64,000 nt of DNA from Halichondria panicea (Eukaryota; Porifera; Demospongiae; Suberitida; Halichondriidae), in the NCBI RefSeq assembly GCF_963675165.1, contig NC_087381.1, positions 682,001 through 746,000 of the forward strand, in the 5' to 3' direction. Below, in pieces: positions 682 through 61,398 of the stretch. A program made the position numbers and the translations under genes. Position 1 is the stretch's first letter, and every line of letters starts with the position of its first letter. Under the pieces are notes generated by a model. It saw only the letters and a list, made by a program, of their open reading frames with translations. It had not been told where the DNA came from and made no database searches.

Positions 682-2514
682 TTGTAGTACAGACCAAGGC
701 CACATCTTGTGTGTGGGTACAATCTTCAACTCCGATAGTGTTAGCAGGACACTCAATGAGTGCTCTCTCAGTTCCTGAGCAACGAAGCTCATCCAGCCAT
801 GTCCGACTGGAATTTGAAGACTGGGGGAAACTATTAAATGTAGGAAGTGATTATCCTAATCTTAGATCCCACTTGTGTGTGTTTAACAGGGAATTATGAG
901 CCATAATCTCATTCGGTATCTATGGTTATAGTGTCCCTCATCCCTCGGGCAAAGCCCTCGTGATATGGGACACTAGATACCTCATGCCCATGTACTATCT
1001 ATAACATAATAAAATTGGAAGAATACTATATAAATATGGATTCATGCATGCACCGGGCTAGAGTATAATTATCATAAAAGTGTACACTCACCCTAATGTT
1101 CCTACTCTTCCAAACTTAGTATAGTCTTCGTACCCCAGCTGACGACAAGCCACTCTTGCATCGTTTGGACTGAAGCTGTCATCACACACTGTTCCCCATT
1201 GATCATCATGAAACAAATCCAGTCTACCAGCGGATGGTATCCCACTGGTAGTAGCATTCACTAGTCTCAAAACTCCATCTAAATTAAGATATGAATTATA
1301 TATACACCTACTGAAAGTGTATAACATCACTCACTTATTGCACACACTAATCCCACATCGTCAGAACGGTCACAGTTATGATCTCCAATAGGATTTCGTG
1401 GGCAGTTTTCAAGTCTACTTTCGGAACCATTGCAGCGAAGGCCGTCCAACCATATCGGAGTGGATGCTGACACTATTAGGGCACTGTATACATGTGAAGA
1501 GTGGAATAATTTGGATTAATAATAGCATATACGCAAGCAAATCTATTGGTATATACTTACTTTCGTACAACCCCATAGGCTACGTAACCTTGGAAAACCA
1601 ACTGACGACAAGCCACAAGTGCACCGGTTGAACCAAATCCGTCCTGACACACTGTCCCCCATTGTCCATTGTAATATATCTCCAATCTACCACTTCTGCC
1701 TCCTGTTGAACCAGACGAATCTACCAGCCTCACATCTCCACTCAATTGCCCTGCATGCATGCATGCACGAAATGAACAACAACACTATCTTCAGATAAAA
1801 TTCAATATTAGTAAGCAAGCCGTCACTCACATAATCCTGGCTACTATATACTCCCTGATGAAATCTTGTTTGTACTAACTTCTTTATACTTTCAGTGTTG
1901 GCTCAATATAATCTTCATTATCACAGCTATTATAATAATAGTAGTCCTTGTGTATAATTATATCAACAATAATTATATTAGGTCAACGTCAATTCATTCA
2001 ATATACATGCAGTAGATCTGGCTCTCTGAAGTATTAATTGCCACTTCGATACCGGCCATTTGGTTTAGTATGAAATGCTAGTGTTTACTGCACAAATCTC
2101 TCCGAAATGCAGCCATGCAATATTGAAGCACCATGGCAGAGTGTTCGCTGTATTAGAACAACGAAAATTTCCCAGAAAAGTAAAAGTGCCCGATAAATTA
2201 GAAGATATACAGTACTATAATACTTAAATGTGCTTGTTTTATTGATACTGTCTTGTAGTAAGTACACAGCAAAAACACTTATGAGATGCATTGCATGTTG
2301 AGGACAGAGATATATACTATAATTTATATACTTCGAAGGAAACTTAATTCTTCAAAACTGTATGGTGCATTGTGTTGTTGTAGGCAGAAGAATTAACTGT
2401 AATATCGACCTGAAGTATATCTAGATCTATAAAATTAACATGCATGAGCTCACCTCCAGCAGCCCAAACCAGGCTCAGGACAGTGACTGACTTCCACAGC
2501 AAAAAATTCATCAT
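682..2514 (-). CDS. SRCR receptor gene A (5' part; runs off left edge)
   Basis: The signal exon is 2454-2514. It begins [18 protein letters not shown] and ends in phase 1 at a GTGAG donor. SRCR1 is split over 1561-1750 (carrying GQWGTVC and VACRQL) and 1335-1483 (W-L-D-G-L-R-C and further Cys). SRCR2 is split over 1092-1278 and 682-830. Phases are 1 / 2 / 1 throughout. Both domains most resemble the first two domains of gene B, so A is probably a B-like gene. SRCR1 has VCQDGFGSTGALVACRQLVF in place of the usual VCDD...[11 protein letters not shown], so it is somewhat diverged. The remaining ectodomain, the membrane helix and the tail lie left of the window. An in-frame ATG six codons upstream (MQEALP) could be an alternative start. 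The paired MM at 2509-2514 matches the other genes. A secreted or membrane role in extracellular recognition is inferred from the family. Confidence 0.8.
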
Positions 2515-3351
2515 TGGTAATGCTTCTTGCAATTCAGTATGGAGGTCACAGTTATGGATCTAATTGTGGAATTTATTTGTTTATAGTGCACGTGACTGAC
2601 TGTGCATATTTTAATCTTACAGGATTGACAGATCAAGTTGTTATTAATAACACATCCAATCCAATATGCCAGGTTTCTCTAAACCAAAAATCGACATTGA
2701 TGGCCTATTACACAATTTATCAGGGCCTACAACCACTCCAATATGTGAAAATAATGCGGGGAAAGACAATCATGCAGTATAGATCTATATCCATAATAAT
2801 TATTATGTCATACATTATTATATTGTTATTGTTGAATGCAAAGCGCTGAGCTATATAGAGGGCTTCTCAAATTATTATTATGCTGTACCATTATAGCGTG
2901 TAATTTTCGTGGGTTAAAACATTTACGTGGGAAAGCTGACCTCGATGAACATTTTCCCACAAAAATCTAGGCGTGGTTCACCAGAACACATGCAGTACAG
3001 TTCAACTGTTACTCACAAAAACTATAATCACTATAATGTTCAACTTCAACACATTTTTTACCCCATGAAAATTACCCGCTATAACGGTATAGCCAGCCAT
3101 GCAAGCATTTATTAGCTGTACCAGCAGTACGTACATGTAGCAAACTGTCGTAGTAATGTGGTTAGCATTTTATAGGTGACAGAACATATTAATTCGAATT
3201 GAAAGGGGGAAAAATTACAAAAAATCAACTATAAATGCAGCAGAATTTGAAATACTAATTTGCTATCACTATAATTAATTAAAGTTCACTACACTTTCAG
3301 TTTTTTTTTAATACTACTTGCATAGTGGGCGGTATTGTTATACCCACATGC
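2515..3351. other. spacer between genes B and A
   Basis: This spacer is the 5' flank of A and the 3' flank of B. It holds the 200-bp palindromic element at about 2,888-3,090. The sequence just upstream of the A start (GAATTGCAAGAAGCATTACC read on the minus strand) recurs before the starts of B, C, D and E and is probably 5' leader. I see no other gene. Confidence 0.6.
2888..3090. mobile_element. MITE, TATAGCGGGTAATTTTCGTGGG family, copy 1
   Basis: A roughly 200-bp non-coding element has inverted ends: ATAGCGTGTAATTTTCGTGGG on the left and the reverse complement of a close match on the right (CCCATGAAAATTACCCGCTAT). Related copies lie at 11,408-11,618, 21,863-22,070 and 45,555-45,765. There is no ORF. 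This fits a short non-autonomous DNA transposon. Confidence 0.65.
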
Positions 3352-12276
<8,925 letters not shown>

Positions 12277-13202: not shown

Positions 13203-16200
13203 TTATTCCGGATATGCTGGAGGGGCTTCTCCGCCAGACAGTTGTCCAGTGGGGTACTGAGCAGGGGGTGGTTGTTCTCCAGGAGGATAAGCAGCTGGGG
13301 GTTGCTGAGTGTACGCAGCTGGGGGTTGTTGAGTGTACGCAGCTGGGGGTTGCTGAGGGTAGGATGTGGGATAGGCGGCTGGAGTTTGCTGAGGATAGTA
13401 CTGGGGGTTAGCATATTGTCCAGTAGGGTAGGGAGCTGCTGATTGAGGAGGCGCATACATATTTTGAGGGGGTGCCTGATTCGAATATTGGGATTTTTGG
13501 TCCATGGATTGCTGCATGGGATAGGCTGTAGCCGTTTGTGTATTTGACCCAGTGACAACTACAGATGTTGACGCAGCGTTATTGACTACGGGAGTTGTGA
13601 GTTGGATGCGAGCCAGACGACGCCTTCTCCCCAGTAAACCACAGACCACAACGACAACCACGAAGAAGATGACGATAGGAATAGTCACTCCAATACCGAT
13701 AGAGACGCTGGACACCGGATATGTGTAAGAAGTAAATGCTGCATAAAAATAATATTTTTAGTACACTAGTGTCGATAAGCATGTCCAGTTTGAGATACAT
13801 ATATATAGAGCATATAATTATGTGTCATAGATATGCCAATTGCATTCATAGCTAAAAGCTATAGGTCTCAGCCATGCACATGCACATTAATTGATACACT
13901 ATTGACTCTTACATCCAGTGCAGGACAAGGCAATATCTTCAAAATGGGTGCAATCTTCATTTCCGATAGAGTTAGCAGGACAACTAATGAGTCTACTCTC
14001 AAATCCTGAGCAACGAAGATTGTCCAGCCATGTCCGAGTGGATGATGAAGCTTGGGAGAAACTATATATATAGGGGGAAATAATGACCTAAACCATTGCA
14101 AGCTGTATATTTCATTGAAACCCTACACAATAAATTCAATGGAAAGTCAATATAAGACTAATAATTATAGTTAACTCAAATGAGTTTACACACTCACTCA
14201 CCCTAGCGCTCCAACTGTTCCGTATCGAGTGTAGGTTGAGAACCCTAGTTGACGACAAGCCACCCTTGCATCATTTGAACCGAAACTGTCATCACACACT
14301 GTCCCCCATCGACTACTATAATAGACCTCCAGTCTACCAGAGGAGCCTCCTGTTTGGCCTGAGTTGCCTACCAGCCTCAGGTCTCCACTTGAAGGACCTA
14401 AATAGCACAATTCATTGCATTATCGGAGTGTAGCAAGTAATATAATCAATGGCGTATAAAAAGAGAGAGAGCATGTAGCTTATTGACTACCAAGCCATAT
14501 TATTATATGTACTGTCAGTACAATTTATTTTTAGATATTACTGTACTTTTCCATTGCTCCCTTTAGTTTTGCTCGCAAGCTGTTGCATGCTATAACGTGA
14601 GATCGAGCGTTATGGGAAATATCAGGCACAATCCCGAGGACTAGCTGCCTGTATAATGCATACAACATGTGGATTCTCATGCATTAGTTTATACCACGAC
14701 GATCCCTTTACCAAATCATGTCTTGAGGCTACGTGACCGCGTAATTAAAAACAACAACGTACCCTCGCAAAAATACACGCATCTTGAATGAAGTGTTTGA
14801 GCATGCCCAGTTAAAATGTGACAAGTTCACTACTCATTTTAGTGAAGAAAGCAGTTTAGTACATAGCTAGTTAGACTCTACTTCTTGCAAGACCAAGATA
14901 TTTTTAGTACGTCAGCGTCGATAAAGCATGTATCCGGTTTTGAAGCTAAAATAATACATAGACATGTGTCATTGAGATCTCTTACTTCCAGTGCAGACCA
15001 AGGCAATATCTTCTGAATGACTGCAATCTTCAATTCCGATAGCGTTAGCAGGGCAATTAATGAGTCTGCTCTCAGTTCCAAAGCAACCAAGATTGTCCAG
15101 CCATGTCCGAGTGAATGATGAAGCTGGGGAGAATCTATATACATATAGGGAAATGATTATCTAAACTATTGCACAAGCTGTATATAATAGTCTAAATTAT
15201 TGTTCTATGAGAAACTCTTTACAATAATTAGGGATAATACAATGGCAATTATAGTCAGTTAGGCTAATATATAGTTAACACTCACGTACCCTAGCGTTCC
15301 AACAGTTCCGTATCGCGGAGTGGAGGAGGTTGAGTACCCTAGTTGACGACAAGCCACTCTTGCATCATTTGAACTGAAACTGTCATCACACACTGTCCCC
15401 CATTGTCCTCTGTAATAGACCTCCAGTCTGCCAGAGGAGCCTCCTGAGTTGCCTACCAGCCTCAAGTCTCCACTTAATTGTCCTGTATGTGTATATGTGC
15501 AAACACAGAAATTATGAAAAAAACAGATTTTATGTCTTCTCTTAGGCCACATCACTCCCAGACATAATTGAAATGTTTAAGTAATTTTCGATTTGGTCAG
15601 CCTTACTCAGAGGAGGTATATATGACATCCGCTAGCCGCAGGAAGCATTTTACCATATCCAGGTCAACGTTCAATTGCATGTTACCTACCATTAGGTTGT
15701 CAATGCATAAAGTATTTAGCTATTTATAGCTGCCAAGAGTCTGCATGATTATAGTATACATAGTTTGATCTAGTATTGTTGAGTTTTAGTCTGTCAACTT
15801 TTTCTCTTTTAAGTTTCAAAGAAGTCTGTTGTGCTTATTATTGTATGAATATTCATCAATGCTATTTGCCGTGAATTGAGACAAGAGGGCATCAAAACCG
15901 CAAGTATATATTTATAGGCTGTTTTTTTTTATTAATTTATAAGAGCGTGCAGTAAGTATAATGGTATACTAAGCAAGCTTTCTTGGCATCTATACAGAGG
16001 ATTTCAAGTTGGTTGGCAGATGTTTAAAGTGCACTCAACCACGACCACACACTTTATGTTTGTTCCTACTAATGCAATTAGTGGTCATGGTTGACTGCAC
16101 ATCAACTTTAATTTTTGCCAACTTACCTGAAAATTAAACCTCTGTATAATTATGGGTACAGAGGTTTTCAGGTAAGTTGAAGAAATGCTCTTGAGTTTAA

Positions 16201-17250
16201 AGTGGATATACAGCACAATATACAGCAGTAATTTAATGCATGAGTAACTTTATACCCCCTGAAGCATTACCTGAATACCTCTTCTCACTAAAATGTATTA
16301 TCAGTAGGCACATGATCCCTCCCGCACATAATTGAGGTTAAATTAACTGATAAAATCTTAGAAGCTTCTAGGGCATCAATTTTATAATCTTTAATTTCAG
16401 CATTAATTACTGTTATTTCTTTCTATAGCTACTCTTTCATTGTTTTGATTGTGTATATCTACAGTTATAATATTATAATAAACAATGAAACAAATACAAG
16501 ACCTGCAGTAGCTATAGCTACAGCATTCTTTCTTATTGTTAATTACAGAGTATAATACGTACGTCAGATCTTGCTTAAAATAATGATGAAAGCCGTAATA
16601 TTATAAAGTTCTTAATTATACGAGTATAGGCCAGTATACATGTAACAGTGGCTATTAATTACACTGGCAAAACAATTGATTTGTGGGAATTAATGAATGT
16701 GTCTGTGTTCCTGTATGTATCAACAAGGGGAGTATTTTGAAGCCTCTCTTAAATACTAATGACACAATCATAATAGTAAGAGACCGGTACAACATTCTTT
16801 AAGCATGCATGCATGCAGAGAACGTTGATTCTTGTTCACCGAATACATACCAGTCTAACCAACTTTATTAGCAGAATCGATCATGCATGCACATGATCAA
16901 TCATACTGAGTAGAAGAGTAATACAAAATGGTAGCAATTGTGAACTATATAGTTTGACAGTCACAATAATGCGGACAGCATTGAACCTTTATAATAGTTC
17001 TATACCAAAAGACAGAGCTGTATGCTCATACACGTATACCTGTCTACGATCGTTTAAATTAATCTCTTATGTTGGATAGGTGCTTATAAGGCAGAAGAGT
17101 ATTTTTTCACTATAGCTGCTAATATAATTATAAGATATACCATTCATAAAATTATAGCAAATTTATAATAATTATACTTGAGGAAAGCTCACCTCCAACA
17201 GCCCAAACCAGGCTCAGGAAAGTGACTGACTTCCACAGTAAACAACTCAT
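13203..17250 (-). CDS. SRCR receptor gene C, 2 SRCR domains, TM, Pro/Tyr-rich tail
   Basis: Predicted 426-residue type I membrane protein. Exons: signal 17193-17250 ([19 protein letters not shown]; a single ATG, since the usual first one has become ACG); S1 15290-15482 + 14986-15134; S2 14202-14397 + 13913-14061; TM/tail 13203-13738. The S1 first-half donor is GTACGT rather than GTGAG; using the GTGAG four bases further on would break the frame. The last exon gives [18 protein letters not shown], a helix rich in Val/Ile/Phe, [28 protein letters not shown], repeats of AAYTQQPP, and the terminus [11 protein letters not shown], an intact PPxY candidate for WW-domain binding. Intron 1 (15483-17192) contains a compound palindrome near 16.0-16.2 kb. 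Confidence 0.9.
15990..16178. repeat. compound palindrome in intron 1 of gene C
   Basis: Three related arms are present. ACAGAGGATTTCAAGTTGG near 15,995 pairs inverted with CCAACTTACCTGAAAATTAA near 16,120. That arm in turn pairs with ACAGAGGTTTTCAGGTAAGT near 16,158. A middle pair (CTCAACCACGACCAC and GTGGTCATGGTTGA) lies inside. It is a probable foldback element. The rest of the intron shows no exon. Confidence 0.65.
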
Positions 17251-17711: not shown

Positions 17712-20700
17712 TCAAATATGCTGGAGGGGCTTCTCCGTCAGACAAATATACAGTGCAGGGGGAGGTTGTTCAGTGGGGCACTGTTGTTGTTCTCCACGAG
17801 GATAAGGGGCTGGAGGTTGCTGAGTGTATGCGGCTGGGGATTGCTGAGGATAGGACGTGTGATACTGGGGGGCAGCATATTGTGCAGTCGGGTAGGGAGC
17901 CACTGGTTGAGGTGCATGCATATTTTGAGGGGGTGCCTGATTCGAATATTGGGGTTTTTGGTCCATGGATTGCTGCATAGGATAGGCTGTAGCCGTTTGT
18001 GTATTTGACCCAGTGACGACTACAGATGTTGACACAGCGTTATTGACTAGGGGACTCATGTACATCTTGCGAGCCAGACGACGCCTTCTACTCATTAAAA
18101 CACAGACCACGACAAAAATCACAACTATGATGATGACGATAGGAATAGTAACTCCAATACCGATAGAGACGCTGGACACCGAATATGATGTGTAAGAAGT
18201 AAATGCTGCATAAAAATAATTTGGTGCATGAGGATCGATAGCATATTTTAAATATATAAAGCGTATAATAGCTAGCGGGTATATTTGAGGGCATACAGTT
18301 TTCGCTGACTAAGCATGTACTGCAAACATATATAATATTATACTCATGAATTTAATATAATAATGCATGCATGCTGCAATAAGGACCTGAGGGACCTATA
18401 AAACGCAAGTCATTGCATGGCTATAATTAATGAATAATGAGTATCTACTCACTTGATTAAAACAAAACTGAAATGCATGCAGTTGCCTACTCCCATTAAC
18501 ATATTGGCTAGAAATGCAAGACACCATGCTTCTATAGTTAAATGCTTGAATGATCCGAATGATACAATGAACATACGAAACAAGATATATCCTTATCAGC
18601 TACAACTATACACGTGATGGTTTGGATAATAAACTTATATAGAAGTACCAGCACACGTAATACTAGCAATATTCTAATCTCTTCTTATATCATACTTGTA
18701 GTACTAATTTCAGTACAGATCAAGGCCACATCTTGTGAATGGGAGCAATCTTCAACTCCGATAGGGTTAGCAGGACAATTAATGAGTCTGCTCTCAGTTC
18801 CTGAGCAACGAAGCTCGTCCAGCCATGTCCGAGTGGTTAATGATGCTTGGGAGAAACTATAGGATAATCGCACTTTAGTGTGAAAGTATATACAAACTGC
18901 ATGTACTAATATAACAGTAGCACATCATGCGATGATCTGATTGTAAGTCAGTATAAAAGTAGTTTAACTCAATGATGAGCCTATAATACTCACCCTAGCT
19001 TTCCAACTGTTCCGTATCGTGGAGTGGAGGAGGTTGAGTACCCTAGTTGACGACAAGCCACTCTTGCATTATTTGGACTGAAATTTTCCTGACACACTGT
19101 CCCCCATTGTCCACTGTAATAGACTTCCAGTCTGCCAGAGGAGCCTCCTGTTAGGCTTGAGAAACCTACCAGCCTCAGGTCTCCACTTGAAGGACCTGAG
19201 GGACCTATAAAACGCAAGTCATTGCATGGCTATAATTAATGAATAGTAACTACTCACTTAATTATAAAACAAAACTGCATGGAATGCACTCGCCTACTCC
19301 CATTAACGTATTGGCTAGAAATGCAAGACATCATGCTTCTATAGTTAAATGCTTGCAAGATCCAAATGATACAATGAACATACGAAGCAAGATATATCCT
19401 AGCCTCGATTCCAGGCCGCGAAGAGAAAGGCGGCCTGGTATACTTTGTATGCGCATGCGCGAAATAATTGACAACAATTTCATCATACAAATTGTAAAAA
19501 AACGGACAAAGTTACAAAAAGGAAGAATACGTATGACAATGTGACCACAATGGCAGCTTTCAGAGACACTAATCAAAGTAGAATAATTATGCTGCAGCAG
19601 TGTCAGTCTGCCCTAAGACCCCAAATGTTGTAAGACAGGAAGTGCTACAAGTTCCCTCATGAATATATTAATGAGAACAGTTTTTCTTTGTTTCTGATAA
19701 AAGTAAAGGTTTTTAGAGCTATCTAAGTTGAAATATGTAATAAGAAGACAGTTTAACATACGATAAACACTTTAAAATATGAATTTGGGTCAAACTGGCA
19801 TTAAGTTGTGAAAACGATTGCGGAAAGTTCGAGAGTTTGAGCAAGCTGTTCACCATCAACGTAGCAAGCTAAAAATTGGTTGATCAAATCAAAAGGATCT
19901 AAATTACAACATATTCAAGGTAAATGCCATACAAATGAATGGTGTTTGCAAAGCAGTTACACAAACTTTGAAATAAATACACAACTTGGCAATAGCATAG
20001 AACACTTCATGAATGACTTCAAGCCTTCTAGCTTGCTGCTAAGCATGCACATGCATCAGATGCACTAGTTGATCCTTTAGGCAGTCTCTGGTTCCATTCA
20101 CATCTGGAGATATGCAGCCATGAGTTCCACCAACCACAGAGATTATTCAGAATGAGCTAACTTTGAGAGTTTGCGCAAGCTGTTCACACTATCTCAATCC
20201 AGTCCAAACTTGCTGAGTCAATACATTCCATATTGAACTAATTTATCTCCTAGTAACAAGTTCTAGTTCAGTAAATGGTCTGTGTTATGAGCTTTGGAAA
20301 TTCAGAAAAAATCACCCTTCACTACAATCTGACAGAGTTGTAGGGTGCATCATTATGAATCTCATTATATAATTATGAATTTCATTAAAACAATGTTTTT
20401 GTGATGTCATCCTTATGAATACCATTAAAATACTTGTGGTATGTATTTCCTGTCTTGTCTTGCAAATACTGAAAACTTGGGGGTCTTAGGGCAGACTGTG
20501 TTGCTTCTTCTAGCTCTGTTTATCAAAGAGACAGTTCAAGAAGGCCTCCCAGACAGTAGAGCTGCCAGCTAGGAAGAGTGGTTAACTCTTTAATACATCA
20601 GTAGATCTTGAGTGAATATTAAACTTCCCGAGTGTCGAGTTAAAGCTTATTAAAAGCTTTCAGGAGTAATCATTAGCTTCTTTATCTTCAGCAATGACTT

Positions 20701-23700
20701 CCTGTCGAACATAAAGGCAAGATTTAGTAGCAGAAGACTTGCCTGGTCCATCATCAGGGGACCCACAGGAACACATCATGCCTTTCCTATATAACATATA
20801 TAGCCTTAAAGTGTAAGGTGTCATAGGTAGAGACTTGGCTTGATACAATAAAGGGCGTAAGAGCTCAGTCATCTTTGCACAATACTTCTATGTAACGGAC
20901 TGTAACTTCAGAATACAATTAGTATACGATTTATTTTACTGACAGTATCCACAAATACACAGATTACCCCCTTTTTGGGGTAATGTACACGCATGCGCAT
21001 ACAAAGTATACCAGACCGCCTTTCTCTTCGCGGCCTGGAATCGAGGCTAGATATATCCTTATCATACAACTACACGTGATGGTTTGGATAACAAACTCAT
21101 AGAAGTACCAGCACACGTAATACTATATATATATATACGCAATATTCGTATGTAACTACTTATCTTACTTGTAGTACTACTTTGAGTGCAGATTAAGGCC
21201 ACATCTTGTGAATGGGTGCAATCTTCAGCTCCGATAGAGTTAGCAGGGCAATTAATGAGTCTGCTCTCAGTTCCTGAGCAACGAAGCTCGTCCAACCATG
21301 TCCGAATAGTAGATGACGCTTGGAAGAAACTATAGGGGAACCCAATTTTACACCAGCATTAATAGAAATTACATGCATGCAGTGATACCATGCAGGAAGT
21401 TGAACCAATTTATAGTGTAAGAAATTATTCCTAAGTCTATTTGTGTTGAGCTAGTTTGGCCTTTTGTAATGTTGTCATAGAACGTTATAACTTCGTCATA
21501 CGTTAAAAATTGCATAGACTCATAACTATTATTTGCCTTTTATGACTTGCCATCAAATCATCCGTCTTAATTACTATAATTTTTATTGTACACAGTCACT
21601 CTGTACTCATTGACTATTGCTTACACACTCACCCTAGCGCTCCAACTGTTCCGTATTGAGTGTAGGTTGAGAACCCTAGTTGATAACAAGCCACTCTGGC
21701 ATCATTTGGAGTGAAGCTGTCGTCACACACTGTCCCCCATTGTCCACTGTAATAGACTTCCAGTCTGCCAGAGGAGCCTCCCGTTAGGCTTGGGAAACCT
21801 ACCAGCCTCAGATCTCCCCTTGAAGGACCTAAACAACACAATTCATTACATGGCTGAATAAGTACCGTATAGCGGGTAAGTTTCGTGGGGTAAAAAATTC
21901 GTTCAACTCGAGAAACGATAGTTTTCGTGAGTAAAAATTTCGTTTAGTCTCGTGGCTGCACGGCATTCTTACGTTCAGATAAGCCACGCCTACAATAAAA
22001 TTTCGTGGAGGTCAGCCTGCCCACGAAAATAACGAATATTTTACCCCACGAAAATTACCCGGTATACGGTATATGGTATATGCTAAGTATCTACTCACTT
22101 AATTATAAAACAAAACTGGAGTGCAGTCGCCTACTCCCATTAATGTATTGGCAGAAATGCAAGAAATCATGCTTCTATATAGTTAATACTTGCATGACAC
22201 GATGATTATACGAAGCAAGTTCTCATCTACATATACACGTAATATAATTATATACATTATACCAGCGGACGTTATTATGTACACAATATTTGTACTCATT
22301 TATTTTTACTTGTAGTACTATTTTCAGTACAGATCAAGGCAATATCTTGTGAATGGGAGCAATCTTCAACTCCGATAGTGTTAGCAGGGCAAGTAATGAG
22401 TCTGCTCTCAGTTCCTGAGCAGCGAAGCTCGTCCAGCCATGTCCGAGTGGTTGATAAAGGTTGGGAGAAACTATATAGGGGGAAATAAAAATTATTGCAA
22501 AAGCTGTATTTATTATATAAATTAGCTATTGACATTTCCTTCAAGATGGATGATTCGATGGCGAGTAATGAAAGGCTAATAAGATTATTATCTGGTGAGC
22601 TTACACACTCACCCTAGCGCTCCAACTGTTCCGTATCGAGTGTAGTTTGAGAACCCTAGTTGACGACAAGCCACTTTTGCATCATTCGGACTGAAGCTGT
22701 CGTCACACACTGTTCCCCATAGTCCACTGTAATCGACCTCCAGTCTGCCGGAGGAACCTCCTGTTAGGCCTGAGCTGCCTACCAGCCTCAGGTCTCCACT
22801 TGAAGGACCTAAACAACAAAATTTATTACATGCATGGCTATAATAATCGAATATGCTGTATGGTTAATTACTCAGTCCAGTGCAGATCAAGGCCACATCT
22901 TCAAAATGGGAGCAATCTTCAACTCCAATAGAGTTAGCAGGACAATCAATGAGTCTGCTCTCAGTTCCTAAGCAACGAAGATTGTCCAGCCATGTCGGAG
23001 TAGTTGATGAAGCTTGGGAGAAACTATAGGAGTAATGATCATGCTAACACAAATGCACCAGCTATAAATTACATGCATGCCATTGAATGATACCATCGGC
23101 AGACCAGAACAGTGTTTAGGATAATTAGGATTGATAAAGGAAATGTCTAATGACAAATATTGCACATATAGAAATTAGCTATAGAGTTCCATGAAACTGT
23201 ACACTCTGCAATACATTTCTTCAAGATGAATGTCGACAGTGAGTCATGAAAGGTAAAATAATTATCAGATGAGCTTACACACTCACCCTAGTGTTCCAAC
23301 TGTTCCATATTGAGTATAGGTTGAGAACCTTAATTGACGACAAGCTACTCTTGCACCATTTGGACTGAAATTGTCATGGCACACTGTCCCCCATTGTCCA
23401 CTGTAATAGACTTCCAGTCTGCCAGAGGAGCCTCCTGTTTGGCTTGAGTTGCCTACCAGCCTCAGGTCTCCACGTGAAGGACCTAAACAACACAATGCAT
23501 TGCATGGCTGAATAATTATATGCTAAGTATCTACTCACTTGATTATAAAACAAAACTAGAATGCATGCAGTCGCCTACTCCCATTAACGTATTGGCTAGA
23601 AATGCAAGACATCATACTTCTATTAATGCTTGCAAGATCCGAATGAAACAATGGATATACGAAGCAAGATAATATTCTTCTTATCTACATGCAACTACAC

Positions 23701-26700
23701 GTGATGGTTTGGATAACAAAGTTATTATTATGCCCAGGGGCGTAGCCAGGGGGGGCTTATGGTGCTCAAGCACCTCCTTTCTATCTGAGATTGTACACAA
23801 AGTGTACTATGATCTGATTGTCTAGCTGAGCACCCCCTTCTCTTCCAGATCTTGCTGCAGTTAGCTAGCTATAGTAGGCAAGCAAAACGAATTGGTCTAT
23901 GACTTTAAACTGTTATAGCTATTCTGGCTTAGATCATGTTTGCCATAAATACTACAATTTGATTGGCTAAAGGATGTGTTCTATCCAACTTAGAAAATCA
24001 TGTACTTCACTTAGAAAATCCTGTAGCAAAGATTAGATAAGAATATTCAAATCTGATTGGCTAAATACTCATGGTTGCTATGATCTAAAATGCTTAAACA
24101 CTATTTAGGAAGTTTCCACATGATTTAGAAGTCCTCAGGGCTAGTAGAATCCTCACTGCGTTCGGGATACTACAACCAGCCCTTTGGGCTTCTAAATCAT
24201 GTAGAAACTTCCTAAACAGTGTCTAACTATTATTTAGATCTATAGACTAGTTCTCTTTCGTAGCAAAATAGGCTTCTGTATGCAAATACATGTACGTAGA
24301 AGATTGGGCCACGCCCAACTATTAATTACTATGTCATTAATAAGAGGTGTGGCTTCCGGTCGTGGTAGCACCTCCTTCCTCAAAGTCCTGGCTACACCCC
24401 TGATACCAGCGCACGTAATACGTTCACAATAATTATTTGTAACTCATTATATATCTATTCTTACTTATAGTACTAATTCCAGCGCAGATCAAGGCCACAT
24501 CTAGAGCATGGAAGCAATTGTCATCTCTAATAGAGTCAGCATGACAATCAATGAGTCTGCTCTCAGTTCCTACGCAACGAAGTTCGTCCAGCCATATCGG
24601 AGTGGATAATGAAGCTTGGGAGAGGGAGAAACTATAGGAGTAATGATCATGCTAACACAAATGCACCAGCTATAATTATACATAAATTACATGCATGCCA
24701 TTGAATGATACCATCGGCAGACCAGAAAACAGTGTTTAGGATAATTATGATTGATAAAGGAAATGATTAATGACAATTATTGACATAAGAAATTAGCTAG
24801 AGTTCCATGAAACTGTATACTCTGTAATACATTTCTTCAAGATGAATGATTCGATGGTTGAGTCATGAAAGGTAATTAACAAGATAATTTTCAGATTAGT
24901 ATACACACTCACCCTAGTAAATCTCCAATATATCCGTATTGACTGTAGGTTGAGAACCCTAGTTGATGACAAGCCACTCTTGCCTCACGTGAGTCGAAGT
25001 TGTCCAAACACACTGTTCCCCATTGTCCACTGTTATAGAGCTCTAGTCTGCCAGATCTAGAGGAGCCTCCTGTTAGGCTTGAGCTGTCTACCAGCCTCAG
25101 ATCTCCATTTAAAGGACCTGAAGGACCTAAACAACACAATTCATTGCTTGACTGAATAATTATATGCTAAGTATCTACTCACTTGATTATAAAACAAAAC
25201 TGGAGTGCATTTTCCTACTCCCAAACGTATATTGGCAGAAATGCAAGAAATCATGCTTCTATATAGTTAATGCTTGCAAAATCCGAATGAAACAATGGAC
25301 ATACGAAGCAAGATATATTCTTCTCATCTACATGCAACTACACGTGATGGTTTGGATAACAAAGTATTATACCCAGGGGCGTAGCTAGGGGGGCTCATGG
25401 TGCTCAAGCATGCACCCCCTTTCTATCTGAGATTGTACACAAAGTGTATATACCTGATTGTCTAGCTGAGCATCCCCTTCTCTTCCAGCAGTTAGCTAGC
25501 TATAGTAGGCAAGCAAAACAAATTGGTCTTTAAACTGTTAGCTATTCTGGCTTAGATCTATAGACTAGTTCTTTTTCGTAGCAAAATAGGCTTCTCTATG
25601 GAAATAGAAGATTGGGCCACGCCCAACTATTAATTATTAGGTCATTAATAAGAGGTGTGGTTTCCGGTAAACCGTATTTCGGCGCTGCACAGTTCAAAAT
25701 CGGGCGCTTTGCGCCCTCTTTTGTCATGGTAGCACCCCCTTCCAGGGGCGTAGCTACCATTGTTTCCTGGTTGCCCAGAAACCCCCCGGGCCCCAGGAGC
25801 TGCTGAGAAAATTGGGCAGGGCTCCCCAATAATTGAAATCAAGCAGCCCTGCCCATCTTTTCATGCACGTGGCTGCAAATCATGTAGAGATAGCACCGTG
25901 AATCGTTTCACTTTGGCTAGCTTTGTCTCAGCATAGATACACGAAAGAAAGGGATAGGCAACGCCCCACGTGATGCTAGGTAAATGCAGTGTGTGACGTC
26001 ACACCCTCTGGTTGGAGGCGAGTTGCGCTCAAGAAAGTACACAATGATCCCTATATCTGCTTATTTTTCTCGTAGGGGGCCTAAAAGAGAAATTCAAAGC
26101 AATCAGGCATCATGCACACATACACCCAGCACTACTGATAGCTACAGCTGCTATGTTAGTGCCGAGCTTTCTTTTATTCAGCTTGATTTGTGTGAAAAAA
26201 CACCAATTTGTCAGTTTATGTACCTCTATCTCCAATATGAAATAATTTTATAACATGTAAGTTTCACAGAATTAAAGTGTGTTTATAACTGCATGGAACA
26301 AAGCATATTTTCCAGCTCTCAATGCAGTGAAGTAGTAGCAGCACCATGAAACGTTTGTCCAAAGTCCAGAAAGTTTGCGTACCTCTCCTGCTCTTACTGT
26401 ACATGGTAATCTAGTTTGAAGTGCTCTAAGATACAGTTTAGGTATTAGAAAGTGGAACACAAGTATCTTTATCTGCATTGTGTGATCGAAGAGATGGCAT
26501 TTGAAGGACTTGGGAACAGACCTGTTATGGTTTGTAGAGTGTACTGACACCCCCTTTGGAGCTCACTTTCTCATCACTTTGCATATAATAGCTCTAAAAG
26601 ATTAATAGCCTATGTCTAAGTGTATCTGGTGTCTCCTCAAGAGCACAGTTTGCTATAATACTACAAACTATTAATATCTTTACTGACATTTTGAGTGCAC

Positions 26701-38100: not shown

Positions 38101-39324
38101 CCTCCAAGTAGAGACTTTTCTTTTCAGTATTAATCAGCTCATTTTTCCGTATTTAATGATGATTTTCAGTACAAAACATGGAAATGAGATGAAATGCTGT
38201 TTAGTGGTTTTGTAATTGCCCCGCCCCTTCAATAAAGGGGCGTGGCAAGCGAGACTTAGCTTTACAAGATAAATTTGTAGCTGTTTTTCAGTATCAGACT
38301 CACTACTAGTATAGAGCATAGAGCTACTACAGCTGTAGGGATGCTACTAGATCCTTCACTGTCAACTATAGCCAGTTAACTTATTCTGTAAGCTGACAAA
38401 AGGTCACTTCTAGTCTTCTATGTATATCCGTATTTTTGCAGTTAATTCCGTATAACCGTATTAGAAGACAGAAATCCGTATAAATACGGAAAAAACCGTA
38501 TACTTGGAGGCTCTGGTACATGCATTACATTCAGTCCTCAGTCATAACACTATCCACATGCACATTGTGTAATACATGCAGGCCATTTACCTTATGCATG
38601 CAAATGATATTCATGACATACATGCAGAGTCAACTGTGTACCAATTGCAATTGACAAAGGAATAAATTGTCAAGTTTTGTCTCTCAGTGCAATATAATTA
38701 CTTAAAAGGAACATTTTTCACAGATTGACCTATAATTTTGTTCGTATAAAATTTGAAATCTTCTGATATTGTATTAAAGTCCTCTCTACTGTAGGGGTGT
38801 GGTCATTTGCGCAGCTAATTTTAGTAACTCTCACATTGCAAATGTTTTTACGGGCTACTAGCTACTCCCTTCCTTCTTTTTGAGCAGCAGTATATGGATA
38901 GATGCATGGGCGTGGCCCACCTCCAAAAGAAAGGAGGGCGGATTTCCAGGCTCTACTGCAAGATTTTTAGAGTTGAGTACAAATCTACATATAGGCCTAA
39001 AACCCATTCTCCTTTCTTTTGGAAGGTGGGCCATGCCCATCTAGTAAGTGGATAGAGCTTGGTGGAAATTCAAAAGAGAAGACACGCATTACTGAAAAAT
39101 GAGTTCCTTTATTAATAATTTGTGAGTTTATGAAATAACAAAGCTGTACCTCACAATCCAGTTTAAACACTGACAGTGAAAATGGGGTTGTATATAGCTT
39201 TTGTAAAGAAGCCAATAAATGGTAGCTGTTTTCAACAATAATATGTGATGCCAAAAGAGCTGAACTCACCTCTAACAGCCCAAACCAGGCTCAGGACTGT
39301 GACTACCTTCCACAGCAACTTCAT
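35148..39324 (-). CDS. SRCR receptor gene F, 1 SRCR domain, TM, Pro/Tyr-rich tail
   Basis: Predicted 286-residue type I membrane protein. Exons: signal 39270-39324 ([17 protein letters not shown], shorter than usual); SRCR 36666-36861 + 35742-35881; TM/tail 35148-35617. The second half is 140 bp, shorter than usual. It lacks the PANxIGVED part ([16 protein letters not shown]) but still has four cysteines. The tail shows [18 protein letters not shown], a helix, [30 protein letters not shown] (so no YSNQ) and the intact terminus [12 protein letters not shown]. The donor of the first SRCR exon is formed by the target duplication of a transposon (36062-36660). Intron 1 (36862-39269) contains three more transposon-like elements, which may affect splicing. 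Confidence 0.85.
36062..36660. mobile_element. CAGGGGCG-type transposon inserted at a splice donor
   Basis: The ends are CAGGGGCGGATCCAGG and CTGGATCCGCCCCTG. The 5-bp target duplication is CTCAC (36057-36061 and 36661-36665). CTCAC is the complement of the donor GTGAG of the SRCR exon at 36666, so each side of the element keeps one donor copy. It is 599 bp with no convincing ORF. Confidence 0.9.
37285..37997. mobile_element. Mutator-like element carrying exon-like fragments
   Basis: The ends are TAGCCTCGATTCCAGGCC and its complement. It is a shorter relative of the 19.4-kb element. No clean 9-bp duplication is seen (left GTACCAACT, right TATAGTATA). Inside, the plus strand encodes a signal-peptide-like [20 protein letters not shown] from 37442. 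The minus strand has an exon-like ORF ([14 protein letters not shown]...CSCEFPDEA) ending at a GTAAGT donor near 37,697. Both could be captured host sequence or remnants of the element's own gene. Confidence 0.75.
38096..38515. mobile_element. DNA transposon, CAGAGCCTCCAAGTA ends, GTACAT TSD
   Basis: The 15-bp perfect inverted ends CAGAGCCTCCAAGTA and TACTTGGAGGCTCTG are flanked by GTACAT on both sides (38090-38095 and 38516-38521). The interior repeats CCGTAT motifs. It is non-coding and lies in intron 1 of gene F. Confidence 0.82.
38906..39040. repeat. 135-bp foldback element
   Basis: The left arm ATGGGCGTGGCCCACCTCCA continues with AAAGAAAGGAG. The right arm is the inverse with a few mismatches. 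It lies in intron 1 of gene F. Confidence 0.75.
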
Positions 39325-40337
39325 TGGCATGTTTGTAGCACGGTAAGTTGTGAAACCGCACAGCTACACTGCTAGCAGTGCTAGATTTGGCAAATCTAAT
39401 TATGTGGTTTCACACATCCGTCCTCCAACCACTAAACTCACATCCTTTAAAAATCACCCCCATGCATTCTTCATATATACCCACATCCTCGAATTTATGC
39501 ACATGTGCACTGTAATACAGCATGAGAGGTGTATAAATAGTCTGGTGGACCAGCCGATATATTATCGTCTGGCAAATTACACATTAGCTACTTGTGCAGT
39601 AGCCTCGATCCCAGGCCGAGTTTTCGCTTTTATAACGGTTAGGCAAGCCGTTATAAAAGCAAAAACTCGGCCTGGGATCGAGACTACTTGTAATTGTGCA
39701 GCGGTCTAAGTGCATTGATAAGTGGTGAGTATATGACTGGTGAACGGCATCATCCTGTGGGCATTTAACTTAATAATTAATGTGTCTGTGGTATCTGGCT
39801 TTAATATCTTAATTCTATTCATCCTGTTGTGCAATCCCTTCTCGCACCCTTTACGATACTGATACGATAATATTATTTGTGTTATGCATTGCTATATTTC
39901 GTCCACAATGTTTGATGTGATTGTTGCCATGACAAGACTTTATTTTCAACCCCATGACGTATATAATTCAGTCTCGTTGCAATAACAAGTCAGTCATAAC
40001 ACAGCTTATATATAATAAACAGCCTTAGCATTCGATCTGATTATGACTGAGAGCCTGGCTTCACGTGCATGGATATAGCTCCACTATACCGGGACTACAC
40101 AGACGTATATATATAGCTATAGTGAGCCGGTATATATTTTAAGTTGCTGTCAATAATTATAGCTATGCAATACATGTACATGTACACAGAATGATAGTAT
40201 GCGCATAAATGTCAAAATCAACTTACAAAATAGTGTATTTAAAGGGAGAGGACAATTTGCTATCACTATATATATCAAGTCACAATTTGTGTTAATGCTT
40301 CAAGATTCTACTTGCACGATTGGCAGTCCCCATATAC
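39325..40337. other. spacer between genes G and F
   Basis: It holds the flipped copy of the gene E upstream region (39,395-39,545, with TATAAATAG on the plus strand at 39532-39540). The palindromic element 39600-39686 follows, then a direct copy of the 34.5-35.0 kb spacer. No gene is seen. The usual leader sequence before the start is not recognisable here. Confidence 0.6.
39600..39686. mobile_element. 87-bp miniature element, TAGCCTCGATCCCAGGCC ends
   Basis: It is a near-perfect palindrome. The arms start TAGCCTCGATCCCAGGCC and end in AACGG, with a TTAGGCAAG loop. It shares its ends with the larger elements at 28.6, 19.4 and 37.3 kb and looks like an extreme internal deletion. The flanks share CTTGT. 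Confidence 0.8.
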
Positions 40338-46010
<5,673 letters not shown>

Positions 46011-47027: not shown

Positions 47028-48754
47028 TCAGTTCAGATATGCTGGAGGGGCTTCTCCGCCATACAAGTACGGTGCAGAGGGTGGTTGTTCTCCAGGAGAA
47101 TAAGGGGCTGGGAGTTTCTGAGGGTACGGGGCTGGGGGTTGTTGAGGGTAGGACGTGGGAGAGGGGGCTGATAGGGGTTGCTGAGGGTTGGACATGGGAT
47201 ACTGGGTAGGGGGTTGCTGAGGGTAGGATGTGTGGTACTGGGGGTCAGCATATTGGCCAGTCGGGTAGGCAGCTGCTGGTTGCATATTTTGAGAGGGGGC
47301 CTGGGGCGAGTATGGTGGTAGATTCCTGACGGGATAGGCTGTATCTTGTGTATTTGATGCAGTGACGACTACAGCTGTCGACGCAACATTATTGATTAGG
47401 GGAGTACTGCGTGGGTAGCGAGCCAGACGACGTCGTCTCCTTGCAAAAACAGAAAACAAGACGACACCCACAACTATGATGATGATGACAAGAACAGTCA
47501 CTCCAATACCAATCCCAGAGAAGTTGATTGATGAAGAAGTCGGTGAAGTGGATGCTGCATGAAATATATAATTATATATGTCAGCGTTGTTAACCTGCAT
47601 GCTCTTTATTTCAGATAGCTGTAACAGTTGTTATGATTAGATTGAATTCCAAGTTAATAAATCTCTCAGCCATGCACATTTAATATATCATTGACACTAG
47701 ACTCTTACGTGTAGTACTGTAACAGATCAAGGCCACATCTGAATTACTGTAGCAACTTTCGATGATGGTAGAAGGACAATCGATCAATGTGCTCTCAGTT
47801 CCAAGGCAACTAACTTCAAACGGCCATGTTACAGTATATGACGAAGCTTGGGAGAAACTAAGGAGGAGATCATTTATTGAATGCATAAAGTGCAACGTGT
47901 GCAATAAAGTATATACTTTCTTCAGGGTAGATGATTCGATGGTAAGTCACTTTATAGATAGTTAACAAAACTATTTTCAGATGAGTTTACACACTCACCC
48001 TAGCGCTCCAACTGTTCCGTATTGAATCGAGCTGTACCCTAGTTGACGACAAGCCACTCCTGCATCACTTGAGCCAAAGCTGTCCATTGTAATAGACCTC
48101 CAGTCTGCCAGAGGAGCCTCCTGTTTGGCCTGAGTTGCCTACCAGCCTTAAGCTTCCAGGTATAAACTGTCCTGTATAATAATTATGCAGATACGAAGGA
48201 AGTGGGAGAGGGCGGTACACATTACAATCTATCATAACATCATTCACATGCCCACACCTGACAAGTGAAATATGAATGGGCTAAAATTATTGGCACAAAC
48301 GCTCTGCCAAATTACTTAGCAAAAATGGCGTTGTAGTTTTGTAAAGAAGCCGGTGAATGTATACTAGCTATACTTGCACTGTATTATGACAAGAGTAGAT
48401 AAGAGTAAGAGTGTTAAACTGCTGTAGTAATCGTGGAACCGCATTTATGCGTCATCACTGTCATCACTATTCAATTAATGAGTGCTGTTATTACTGTATA
48501 GTCTGTTGTTTGTAGCACTGACAGAACTGCGCAATCACAGCATGTACGGTTTCTGGGAAATGTTGCTATTAAATAACAATGATTACTATCAAGTGATGAC
48601 GCAGGAGCAGGCAAATGCTGTTACTATGTACTAGCAGTTCAACACTCTTACTCTTGATTATGACCATGCAGAAGTAGCCTATATAGCACTCACCTCCAAC
48701 AGCCCAAACCAGGTTCAGGACAATAACTGTCTTCCACAGCAAGCAACTCATCAT
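47028..48754 (-). pseudogene. SRCR receptor gene H, 1 SRCR domain broken by a 23-bp deletion
   Basis: Exons by homology: signal 48694-48754 ([20 protein letters not shown], intact); SRCR first half 47999-48171; second half 47709-47857; TM/tail 47028-47554. The first half is 173 bp instead of 196. The stretch encoding WGTVCDD, with the first cysteine, is missing, and the frame is lost after YYNGQ. The second half is also diverged: WPFEVSC replaces WLDELRC. The summed length is not a multiple of three. The tail exon is intact and normal: SGIGIGVTV, helix, [37 protein letters not shown]. Because the signal exon ends and the tail exon begins in phase 1, skipping both SRCR exons would still give an open frame. 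A short SRCR-less membrane protein therefore cannot be excluded. Confidence 0.8.
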
Positions 48755-49371: not shown

Positions 49372-53002
<3,631 letters not shown>

Positions 53003-53645: not shown

Positions 53646-53774
53646 CTAGTACAACTCTTCGTAGCGATTCTTCTTAGAGCGACACTTATAGCAGCATCTC
53701 GTAATGGACACCATGAGAACTACAACACATCCCACCTTATATAAACACGGCAGCTAGGCCCAACATCACACTAG
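53646..53774 (-). pseudogene. relic of the last exon of a gene K copy
   Basis: It is nearly identical to 59074-59200, including the end encoding RCCYKCRSKKNRYEELY and the stop. A 4-bp insertion after the CCCACC stretch shifts the frame in the membrane helix, and the 5' part is missing. It shows that the I/J duplication unit reached into the end of a K-type gene. Confidence 0.88.
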
Positions 53775-53919: not shown

Positions 53920-53988
53920 TACAACCCTGCTGTCAACTACATGACAAAAAATTATAGTAAATTTAATACTGCCATAAGTAAGATGAGA

Positions 53989-54218: not shown

Positions 54219-54245
54219 CACTTGTGTGGTGGGCAGTCCCCATAC

Positions 54246-58528
<4,283 letters not shown>

Positions 58529-59073: not shown

Positions 59074-61398
59074 CTAGTACAACTCTTCGTAGCGATTCTT
59101 CTTAGAGCGACACTTGTAGCAGCATCTTGTAATGGACACCATGAGCACTACAACACATCCCACCATAAACACCGCAGCTAGGCCCAATATCACACCAAAC
59201 AGTACTATCAACAGCGGAAACTCTGCATGTATACGGAGAAAACACATGCATGTACAGCTCATTAACATGATACTGCATTGAGTGTACAATTAATTGTAAC
59301 GCTTACTGTTGATTGCACAGTTGCTCTTGTATCCAGCAGAATACTCTTCGGCTTCACTTAAGTCAAATTCTGTACATATGCACACACACACACACACAGA
59401 GAAATTAAACTACATACAAGACTAAGGCTGAGTAGCTGTCAGTGTGTATAGACTTACGGCATTGAATGGCCACATCCATCGTGTGGTTACAGTCATGGAT
59501 GAGGACGTGAGGTTGGAAGCAATCGGTGAAACATGACTGAGAGGAATCACAAGTGAGGTCCTTCACGTGAATAGCTCCACTACCAGGGCTATACAGTAAT
59601 TATAGTGAGCCGTTAGGAATTAAGGTATACTATCAATTAATTAATGGATACTATATATGCACACAGCATGATAGTAATAATTACTATGCCCAGAAATGTC
59701 TGTTTACTTGTTTTAAAAGACTAGCTATAAAGCATATACCACTTAAAACAAGAAAATGGTATGTGTATACTAGCTATTATGTACACTGAGTGAACTCACA
59801 ATGCACTTCCAGTGAACACAGCCCCTGTGTAGCCCAGTTGTCGACACACAGAGTCAGCCCCCTCCTGACTGAAACCTTTGTTACAGACTGTACCCCACTG
59901 GCCATTCTGGTAGACCTCTACACGCCCGTACGAATGTATGGTGGTGTTCGTTAAAGAGTTCATCAGGCGAACTTGCCCCTGATAAGGAGCCTCCCAAATA
60001 TTCTCAACACCTGCAGGAAAGTTAAATAGGATATCTGCACCCAATTCATTTAATTTCCATGCACGGATGGTGGTTGTACATATATATATATAGAATGGCT
60101 AATTGCAATCCCGACACATAATTATGTATGCATGCTGATTGCATGCATAGTAATGAGCTATAATTTATAAAAGCATATCTATATAAAGACGCTTGTGCAC
60201 AATATCTTACTGCAAAACACTGCCACATCTTGCCGATGACTGCAGTCCTCGTCTAAGTTTCCGTAATCGACATCACAACGCATAAAATGCCAGAAATAAG
60301 AAGCTGAACACGATATGTCACTCACAGCTATAGGCATACTGTCATTTGCAGAACCATACCTATTGCAACATGTGTGTGAAATTATAAATGGAGACATTCC
60401 TCATGGCAAAATTAATGGGCACTTTAAAATAGATCACATGCAGCACAATGTATACATGCAGTCAAGATCAACTACATGGTAAATAGATGTTACATTCTGT
60501 ATAGCACTATTTCAAAGTTGAATGCTACCTGATGGCAACTGCTGTATTTTACAATCTGCAAACAAGCCAAACAGTAAAGCACAAAACGTACGGTGTATAG
60601 ATCGTGTAATTCCAGCCGGTAGCATATTTGAACCCCATCTGTCGACAAGCCACGTTAGCAGCTGCGAGTGAGAACTCATCACCACACACTGTCCCCCATG
60701 AACCCTCGGACTCAACCTCACCACTGCCATCAGACATGTAATTACTGCCAAGGTACATCTGCATGTGTGTGCCGGTGTGATGGGGAGATGTTATATATTA
60801 TGAGTTTTGGCTGGTTGTAGATTTGCATCCGCTATATTAAATAGAGAGTTGAGACTCAGAGAGTCTACATGTACTGTGGTACTGCATTATCTTAATAAAA
60901 GCACAATGAAAATCTTGCTATGAAGTGTCGGAATTTTACAACGTGCAGAGTTTAGCTATACACAGAATAACTACTGTAGTATATAGATTTAATATATACA
61001 TGCAAGTTTATAATATAATACACATGTCTCACCTCCAATCGTCCTGCACCTGTACCAACCACTTCATCATTCACCATTAATCGGAGGTCTCCTTTGGACC
61101 ATAAAATGTGTGGCTCTATCAGTGATTGTGTCCAGTCATCCGCAAACAAGAACTCGTCATCCGTATTAAGTCCGTCCTCTGAACAAAACAAATATGTACG
61201 TATATGGAAGCTAACATGATATGATACTTTTTTTGCTACAAATGCTGTATAATAAACTCTTTATAGTGCTTATAGCAATTTACCTGATGTCTGCCCATCT
61301 TTGTATAGCTGATAGCCATCTTGTTGCGGGCTTGCATCAACTCTAGTCTGTAGCAACACATATACCAGTGTGGCAATAACTTTCCATTGACTTTGCAT
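59074..61398 (-). CDS. gene K: divergent two-SRCR type I membrane protein
   Basis: Predicted 376 residues over eight exons: 61284-61398 (signal MQSQWKVIATLVYVLLQTRV, likely cut near VDA), 61033-61178, 60592-60758, 60211-60359, 59800-60010, 59458-59588, 59307-59369 and 59074-59222. SRCR1 starts near GDLRLM. Its first half is divided by an extra phase-0 intron, and it has SWGTVCGD, VACRQMGF and EDCSHRQDVAVFC. SRCR2 has [19 protein letters not shown] and HDCNHTMDVAIQC, plus an additional Cys. A short acidic linker, a single hydrophobic helix (about residues 328-358) and a 16-residue tail with CCYKC and YEELY follow. The tail has no Pro-rich part and YEEL fits a YxxL sorting or signalling motif. 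K differs from A-J in signal, domains and tail, so it is a related but separate lineage. Confidence 0.88.

Follow-up and report, generated by a model that had tools for sequence, protein, structure and literature searches.

SRCR domains number in the hundreds to thousands in sponges (PMC4772301, PMC10855680), with 2166 SRCR-like domains reported for Stylissa carteri (PMC4772301), and a transient response to native bacteria has been reported for 56 SRCR genes of a sponge (PMC13372038). For Amphimedon and the sea urchin, tandem clusters of SRCR genes that differ in domain number have been described (PMC10855680). A further array of this kind is found in Halichondria panicea, where a stretch of 64,000 nucleotides, hereafter the window, corresponds to positions 682001-746000 of contig NC_087381.1 (designated C5; other contigs of the 131 Mb, 39-contig genome are named in the same manner). 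Its genes are predicted from the gene models to encode tandemly arranged single-pass (type I) cell-surface receptors that share a signal exon and a cytoplasmic tail, most often ending in a PPxY motif at a fixed distance from the C-terminus. While tandem expansions of sponge SRCR genes are known, no prior description of a PPxY tail on SRCR receptors was found in the literature searched.

Among vertebrate systems, bovine WC1 is the best parallel in gene organisation; WC1 signals through tail tyrosines, to which the array tails have no ITAM or ITIM (immunoreceptor tyrosine-based activation or inhibitory motif) counterpart. Like the array, WC1 comprises clustered multi-SRCR transmembrane receptors, expressed on one lymphocyte type, with an internal block duplication (one domain plus five repeated once, resembling gene B and gene u666 described below) and with tail variants that include premature stops (PMC2681482). 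Unlike the array, WC1 is reported to have group B domains, one exon per domain, a tail built from four to six exons, and 13 genes in two loci (PMC2681482). The clusters of Amphimedon queenslandica (Peng et al. 2024, PMC10855680) are likewise tandem, with two to six domains gained by unit duplication. However, the highlighted Amphimedon cluster has nine SRCR genes in two subclusters as against 32 signal exons in Halichondria, the expanded sponge domains there belong to the seven-cysteine group C as against six cysteines here, the majority of sponge-linked domains occupy three exons as against two, and the accessible text of that account describes no tail motif (PMC10855680).

Gene models were derived from hidden Markov models (HMMs) of the window exons together with in-phase splice modelling, and the flanks C5:432001-682000 and 746001-756000 were examined as well. 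In the window, ten minus-strand genes (A-J, Table 1) each consist of a signal exon, one or more pairs of SRCR exons (A followed by B, in phases 1-2 and 2-1) and a transmembrane/tail exon. Since candidate exon boundaries had to be in phase and the top-scoring site or donor was kept, the regularity of phase and splicing is partly imposed, and the exon plan therefore rests on exact motifs that recur in the window exons (CTAGG/GTGAG at A-exon ends and TATAG/TTTC at B-exon starts, the slash marking the boundary) and on the chosen donors, GTGAG in 74 of 92 A exons and GTAAG in 66 of 87 B exons. Exon HMM scans and splice models bore out the same-strand arrangement with a common signal exon and one to eight SRCR domains put forward in an initial annotation of the window, and also the spacing of 0.5-2.2 kb given there, which measures 461 bp (C-D) to 2161 bp (D-E) from a start codon to the next stop. 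The ten-gene cluster of that annotation is real but is only the end of an array with 32 signal exons on one strand, which extends over C5:554.7-740.5 kb (~186 kb). No exon-HMM match at E < 1e-3 was found in the flanks at 432.0-554.9 kb and 746.0-756.0 kb, and the plus-strand exceptions inside the array are two short fragments of SRCR A exons (C5:622929 and C5:667844). When a stray B fragment of u626 is left out, 24 of the 32 models are open with a single terminal stop; the eight damaged or incomplete ones are H, u673, u657, u652, u611, u608, u601 (with a weak tail match at C5:597931 overlooked by the splice model) and u565. Of the ten receptors proposed for the window, nine are open; H is frameshifted within its sole SRCR domain, the first SRCR exon being matched in two frames (47998-48105 and 48080-48157), and is likely a pseudogene.

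The last exon encodes a hydrophobic helix, a basic stretch and then a Pro/Gln/Tyr-rich tail, the tail measuring 103-182 residues where PPxY lies at position -6. Near the C-terminus there is a nine-codon block, GG(E/G)APP(A/P)YP, in which PPxY starts at position -6; the first two positions of its codons are mostly fixed, and several third positions vary. Among the 30 tails of the array (a 31st frame is the helix fragment of a broken gene), 22 contain PPxY: 20 at -6, one at -12 and one internally, in B. Within the window, the terminal motif is present in A, C, F, G, I, J and the broken H. The tail ends without it are B, which reads PSAY at the terminal place and has its sole PPxY (PPQY) far from the end, two short tyrosine-free tails, and six others, including D and E, where the frame changes shortly before the end and the common C-terminus is absent. 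The claim that B-J share the same last exon thus holds for the exon itself, which A has too, outside the window, but not for the ends of D, E and B. It is the position of PPxY that is unusual, not its number: PPxY at -6 occurs in 20 of 31 frames against a mean of 0.34 and a maximum of 4 in shuffled tails (counted in the shuffles at 1-3 residues from the end), an excess whose significance the shuffles overstate, the tails being kin by descent. In the 20 PPxY tails plus B, 6-nt bins show an identity of 0.81-0.97 within the nine-codon block, 0.69-0.82 in the preceding 18 nt and 0.34-0.63 further upstream. Tails are partly coded by minisatellites with units of 24-60 nt (Table 1), so repeat number could vary between alleles.

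PPxY is a WW-domain ligand (PMC11399591, PMC6971923). A PPxY transmembrane design like that of the array is found in the STMC6 adaptors (CYYR1, WBP1, VOPP1, WBP1L, TMEM92); CYYR1 is reported to have a signal peptide, a cysteine-rich ectodomain, one transmembrane segment and C-terminal PPxY motifs that bind the WW domains of WWP1 and WWP2 (PMC11399591). STMC6 proteins and dystroglycan carry several PPxY motifs, whereas the array members have an SRCR ectodomain, usually one PPxY near the end, and form a large tandem family. Membership in STMC6 was rejected, as two spliced first domains give SRCR models only (Pfam, E 0.01). Pfam assigns no known family to the tail, with sub-cut-off matches for two tails only, and no PDB sequence matches the J tail at E 0.1. 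In literature searches that covered few subscription journals, no paper was found to join SRCR, PPxY, transmembrane and WW domain, and only DMBT1 work came up for sponge SRCR proteins with a proline-rich cytoplasmic tail; papers on sponge SRCR polymorphism and allorecognition include none on such an array by title. The earlier statement that no described family has this tail is therefore fair for SRCR proteins in the literature searched, but PPxY tails as such are known from STMC6 and dystroglycan.

In the genome, 39 WW exons were matched, and WW and HECT exons adjoin at three places (C7:173-177 kb, C7:5.497-5.502 Mb and C17:5.298-5.302 Mb), so NEDD4-like candidate partners exist. Since PPxY binds WW domains and WW-HECT genes are present, docking of a WW protein with ubiquitin-driven uptake is favoured. 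We tentatively prefer, with confidence somewhat short of even, to regard the array products as clustered scavenger or recognition receptors that share WW-domain docking as their output, most likely of NEDD4-type ligases for uptake. The SRCR ectodomains would bind polyanionic or microbial/particulate ligands via a cation face, and ligand binding would pass the cargo on to one shared handler: through its constant end, the tail would dock a WW-domain protein, most likely a HECT ubiquitin ligase of the NEDD4 family, which would ubiquitinate the receptor or its partners and thereby drive uptake and sorting. Such scavenger or phagocytic receptors would be expected in a filter-feeding animal. Members without the motif (D, E, B with PSAY, and the two with tyrosine-free tails) would either bind ligand without such handling or be decaying. 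If this is true, a large recognition family of an early-branching animal would use ubiquitin-driven uptake and not ITAM-like signalling, and the conserved terminal PPxY offers a concrete and cheap handle on the shared output.

Tail tyrosines invite another explanation, namely that the array encodes classical phosphotyrosine receptors that recruit SH2 proteins, e.g., via YxxQ, with PPxY being secondary; we hold it to be quite unlikely. YxxQ is a STAT-type motif. It is present in 27 of 30 tails (76 in total) against a shuffle mean of 18.0 tails and a maximum of 26, and a single tail may contain up to 20 tyrosines. Yet YxxQ is partly a by-product of YPQQ/YPTGQ repeats, YSMN in an upstream gene group takes the place of the YPVQ or YPMQ of the window group, and repeat number varies while the position of the terminal motif is constant in 20 of the 21 tails having it. 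ITAM, ITIM, YxxM and dileucine motifs occur in none of the 30 array tails, and membership in the ITAM/ITIM immune receptors was accordingly rejected. Among sorting-type signals, YxxPhi is found in five of the 30 tails against 17.8 in shuffles, and P(T/S)AP in seven against 2.3 (maximum 7). Two members (C5:558390-560349 and C5:589740-592106, with stops at 558390 and 589740) have a 44-residue tyrosine-free tail ending in QDACSPTSVN and could possibly represent a decoy or alternative-output type.

The main rival to WW docking for uptake is a dystroglycan-like link to the cytoskeleton or to Hippo-type signalling, in which adhesion or self/non-self receptors would bind matrix or neighbouring cells through SRCR domains and a cytoskeletal or Hippo-type WW protein through PPxY, as beta-dystroglycan does; we regard it as unlikely. 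Sponge SRCR proteins have been tied to aggregation, which counts in its favour, and many of the WW exons have no matched HECT exon nearby. The C-terminal PPxY of dystroglycan, similar in place to that of the array, is reported to bind dystrophin WW domains, as well as Kibra and Yap with results that differ between studies, under the control of tyrosine phosphorylation (PMC6971923). However, the gene models hold only SRCR exons between signal and helix, and the large copy number and varying domain number would better suit the recognition of many ligands than a structural link.

The tail and its terminal tag are not confined to the array. The J tail as a query gives at least 50 genome matches, J itself being the best (2.8e-69) and I the next (1.4e-62), which fall in the array and at C5:1.78-1.80 Mb, C12:5.05-5.17 Mb, C17:3.89-3.97 Mb and C1:1.19-2.40 Mb; most off-array tails on C1, C12 and C17 are about half to two thirds identical to that of J, the genes on these contigs and at C5:1.78-1.80 Mb being judged from search matches only. 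A signal-exon DNA query gives at least 40 scored matches among 57 candidates, with an identity of 90-100%, which extend to C1, C7, C12 and other parts of C5, and an SRCR profile search of the genome gives at least 213 matches from the best 150 of 1364 candidates. A degenerate DNA pattern for G(E/G)APP(A/P)YP has 28 exact matches in 131 Mb, while the reversed control has none; 19 of them are on C5 (two out of frame or past an early stop), six on C1 and three on C12, and each follows a same-strand tail match within 0.3 kb. Allowing one mismatch adds five off-array tails (four on C17, one on C1) to those with the exact pattern, giving 14 of 18, and two mismatches add one more on C12; three one-mismatch matches on C13, C14 and C16 lie away from any tail match. 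With up to two mismatches, there are 113 matches against 41 in the reversed control, so two-mismatch matches are largely chance. At C5:2.35 Mb, a start of the same family is followed by two complete SRCR domains and then the leading half of a third one, where the stretch examined ends.

A large sensing family may thus be wired to one common internal partner. In its broadest form, which we consider doubtful, this would be a superfamily on at least four contigs (C1, C5, C12, C17), including the 32-gene array, in which most parts vary (SRCR number and charge, helix, tail repeats) and the signal exon and nine-codon PPxY tag are held, hard-wiring open-ended recognition to one WW/ubiquitin hub instead of tyrosine kinases. 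Tag-less members (the frame-changed ends of D and E, the short tyrosine-free tails) would then serve as decoys, and a tagged SRCR-less member with signal, transmembrane and tail exons as an adaptor.

The SRCR domains themselves were assigned by Pfam (PF00530, E 1.3e-25 and 7.5e-27 for two spliced domains) and have 28 matches among PDB sequences, including CD163, MARCO, SR-A and DMBT1. In group A, an SRCR domain is divided over at least two exons. In 86 paired domains of the array, six cysteine columns are at or near 100%, with no seventh cysteine among the majority columns; by these cysteines and the two-exon split, the domains are classified as group A. Group B (eight cysteines, one exon per domain) is ruled out by the six cysteines and two exons, and the sponge group C by the lack of a seventh cysteine column, the seventh cysteine being C1 in the published group definitions (PMC10855680). 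By sequence, CD163 (reported as group B, unlike the array), MARCO, SR-A and DMBT1/SALSA belong to the same fold family, and the array keeps most aspartates of their cation face. Residues were mapped by means of a printed CD163 alignment, the DMBT1 numbering of PMC7043408 and what we take to be the DMBT1 sequence. The residues corresponding to D1020 and D1058 are retained in 80 of 83 and in 81 of 85 domains, respectively, that corresponding to D1019 in 52 of 83 (Q in 16) and that to E1086 in 46 of 84 (Q in 26). In DMBT1/SALSA, which differs from the array in having four disulphides (type B), these residues have been given roles in cation sites 2 and 3 (PMC7043408).

Several observations weigh against receptors docking a NEDD4-type ligase. 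Only 30 of the 82 domains with all six positions have a full D-D-E triad at cation site 2 (DDQ in 16, QDE in 10), and since D1020 and D1058 are kept widely while the triad is so often incomplete, ligand binding through the cation face is plausible but would not be uniform. The ends of D and E lack PPxY and B has an altered form of it; the motif is therefore not essential to every member. NEDD4 is one among several WW classes represented by the matched WW exons, and lysines are few (51 across the 30 tails). Apart from the kinship that inflates the positional test, the total of 22 PPxY is only a modest excess over shuffles (14.2, s.d. 3.6, maximum 26), and the fall in identity after the block (0.73 over the last residue and stop, then 0.59 and at most 0.41 past the stop) comes from an ungapped, stop-anchored comparison that favours the anchor. 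Outside the array, the exact DNA pattern accompanies nine of 18 tail places, as counted from pattern matches and not frames, and for the C5:1.78-1.80 Mb pair and the C1:2.40 Mb tail it is absent among the matches listed. The off-array counts thus cut both ways.

The length of the ectodomain has changed, as judged from the domain sequences, by block duplication of whole domains. Gene B is composed of a four-domain block present twice, with matching members 95, 97, 94 and 92% identical, and gene A has the same block once; u666 likewise has a four-domain block twice (96, 94, 92 and 90% between matching members), and u588 a three-domain block twice (88, 94 and 95%). The proposed modular cluster with varying ectodomain length is supported by these cases. 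For 34 of 86 domains, the closest relative lies within the same gene. The two-exon SRCR unit starts and ends in phase 1, so domains can be gained or lost without a frame break, and unequal exchange of whole exon pairs, aided by this symmetric phase, would explain the domain blocks.

The annotation had also regarded the cluster as fast-evolving with its cytoplasmic output kept. Ratios of nonsynonymous to synonymous change (dN/dS; pairwise NG86, pairs with 0<dS<1) are 0.49 for the signal exon (454 of 496 pairs), 0.51 for A exons (3098 of 3655), 0.61 for B exons (3023 of 3655) and 0.63 for the transmembrane and juxtamembrane region (349 of 406). The values of about 0.5-0.6 in SRCR exons indicate no bulk positive selection, and high-replacement sites are not clustered at the cation ligands (10 of 40 within five residues as against 14 of 71 elsewhere, Fisher p 0.63-0.79). 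Positive selection on the ectodomain is therefore not borne out by the ratios of all four parts and this crude site-wise test, and fast evolution finds no support. Median proportions of synonymous and nonsynonymous differences (pS/pN) in 378 shared gene pairs are 0.16/0.09 for the signal exon, 0.22/0.17 for SRCR domain 1 and 0.45/0.33 for the transmembrane and juxtamembrane part, where a gappy helix alignment may inflate the values. By these medians, the ectodomain evolves no faster than the tail, homogeneity is greatest at the 5′ end, and among coding parts divergence is greatest in the transmembrane/juxtamembrane exon, so that a kept output applies to the nine-codon PPxY block and not to the helix region. 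In the 32-gene alignment, mean pairwise identity is 0.88-0.96 per 25-nt bin over the signal exon, 0.76 in the 25 nt preceding the anchor and at most 0.33 more than 50 nt upstream of it. As to single signal exons, that at window 12216-12276, for example, shares 90-97% DNA identity with copies on C1, C7, C12 and other parts of C5, in line with the low synonymous divergence seen in the medians. The homogeneity of this exon suggests conversion, exon shuffling or nucleotide-level constraint.

Such homogeneity bears on a further alternative, passive tandem expansion with birth-and-death turnover, in which likeness of tails and signals would result from recent duplication and conversion without any common output. 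The eight damaged or incomplete models speak for it, together with a conversion-like contrast in median pS between the signal exon (0.16) and the transmembrane/juxtamembrane part (0.44) and a recent 3.4 kb duplicate at 97.8% identity. We nevertheless find it improbable, as 24 of 32 models are open with one terminal stop, dN/dS is below 1 in every coding part measured, and the terminal block is better conserved than both of its flanks and is found again on C1 and C12 and, if one mismatch is allowed, on C17.

Table 1. Window coordinates of the SRCR genes; in B-J, the first number is the end of the tail exon and the second is the start codon, as is the second number for A
Feature	Position	Strand	Signal exon	SRCR domains	Tail exon	Tail minisatellite	Remarks
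Gene A, in-window part	682..2514	-	2454-2514	4 in the whole gene; exons 1561-1750, 1335-1483, 1092-1278, 682-830			Open model
Gene A, beyond window start		-		Two more	-1699 to -1272		C-terminus GGGAPPAYPG; tail design as in other array genes
Gene B	3352..12276	-	12216-12276	8 (four-domain block twice)	3352-3971	3391-3573	Open, 1133 letters including the stop sign
Gene C	13203..17250	-	17193-17250	2	13203-13738	13291-13361	
Gene D	17712..30145	-	30085-30145	6	17712-18205		Other-frame end, PPxY absent
Gene E	32307..34341	-	34284-34341	2	32307-32695		Other-frame end, PPxY absent
Gene F	35148..39330	-	39270-39330	1	35148-35617		
Gene G	40338..46010	-	45950-46010	4	40338-40801	40384-40462	
Gene H	47028..48754	-	48694-48754	1	47028-47554	47104-47242	Likely pseudogene
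Gene I	49372..53002	-	52945-53002	3	49372-50030	49427-49698	
Gene J	54246..58528	-	58471-58528	3	54246-54814	54301-54485	
Gene K	59077..61398 (about)	-		2, divergent			Outside array design; start codon 61398

The interval 682..61398 given for the ten receptors is correct for A-J as far as 58528; the remainder is occupied by gene K, a divergent SRCR gene at the upstream edge of the array, which has its own signal peptide, a differing exon plan, its own transmembrane segment and a short tail ending in KKNRYEELY.

Within the array, u632 (C5:630703-632339) has the signal exon joined straight to the transmembrane/tail exon with no SRCR match between them; it is open (164 letters including the stop sign), its C-terminus is PPPYPG, and it may be an adaptor-like product or a deletion remnant. 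The segments C5:634331-637720 and 643536-646943, which partly cover u637 and u646, are the two copies of the 3.4 kb duplicate mentioned above and represent either a very recent duplication or an assembly duplicate. About 1.4 kb around the starts of I and J (window 52350-53771 and 57947-59195) is 74% alike, the longest mostly non-exonic repeat of the window, and these genes may be a segmental duplicate pair. A 0.55 kb repeat (86%) in introns of D and F (window 20498-21053 and 37457-38001), extended at 19400-19565 and 37285-37457, resembles a mobile element. A one-mismatch copy of the tail-end pattern at C5:735845-735867, 0.4 kb past the J stop, is perhaps the relic of a lost tail; another, at C5:346620-346642, lies inside a different SRCR cluster at C5:339-371 kb.

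In the window as a whole, no tRNA and no Rfam match at the gathering score was found. Beyond the array, on the plus strand, a serine-rich long open frame (window 62935-63552) follows a CA repeat and reads MATDGKSRIPKF...; it has no Pfam match at E 0.01. Another repeated gene group, with copies about 83-93% identical, lies at C5:433-472 kb, and its proteins combine a hydrophobic stretch at the N-terminus with collagen repeats (PF01391, E 9.8e-20) and a C-terminal part without assignment.

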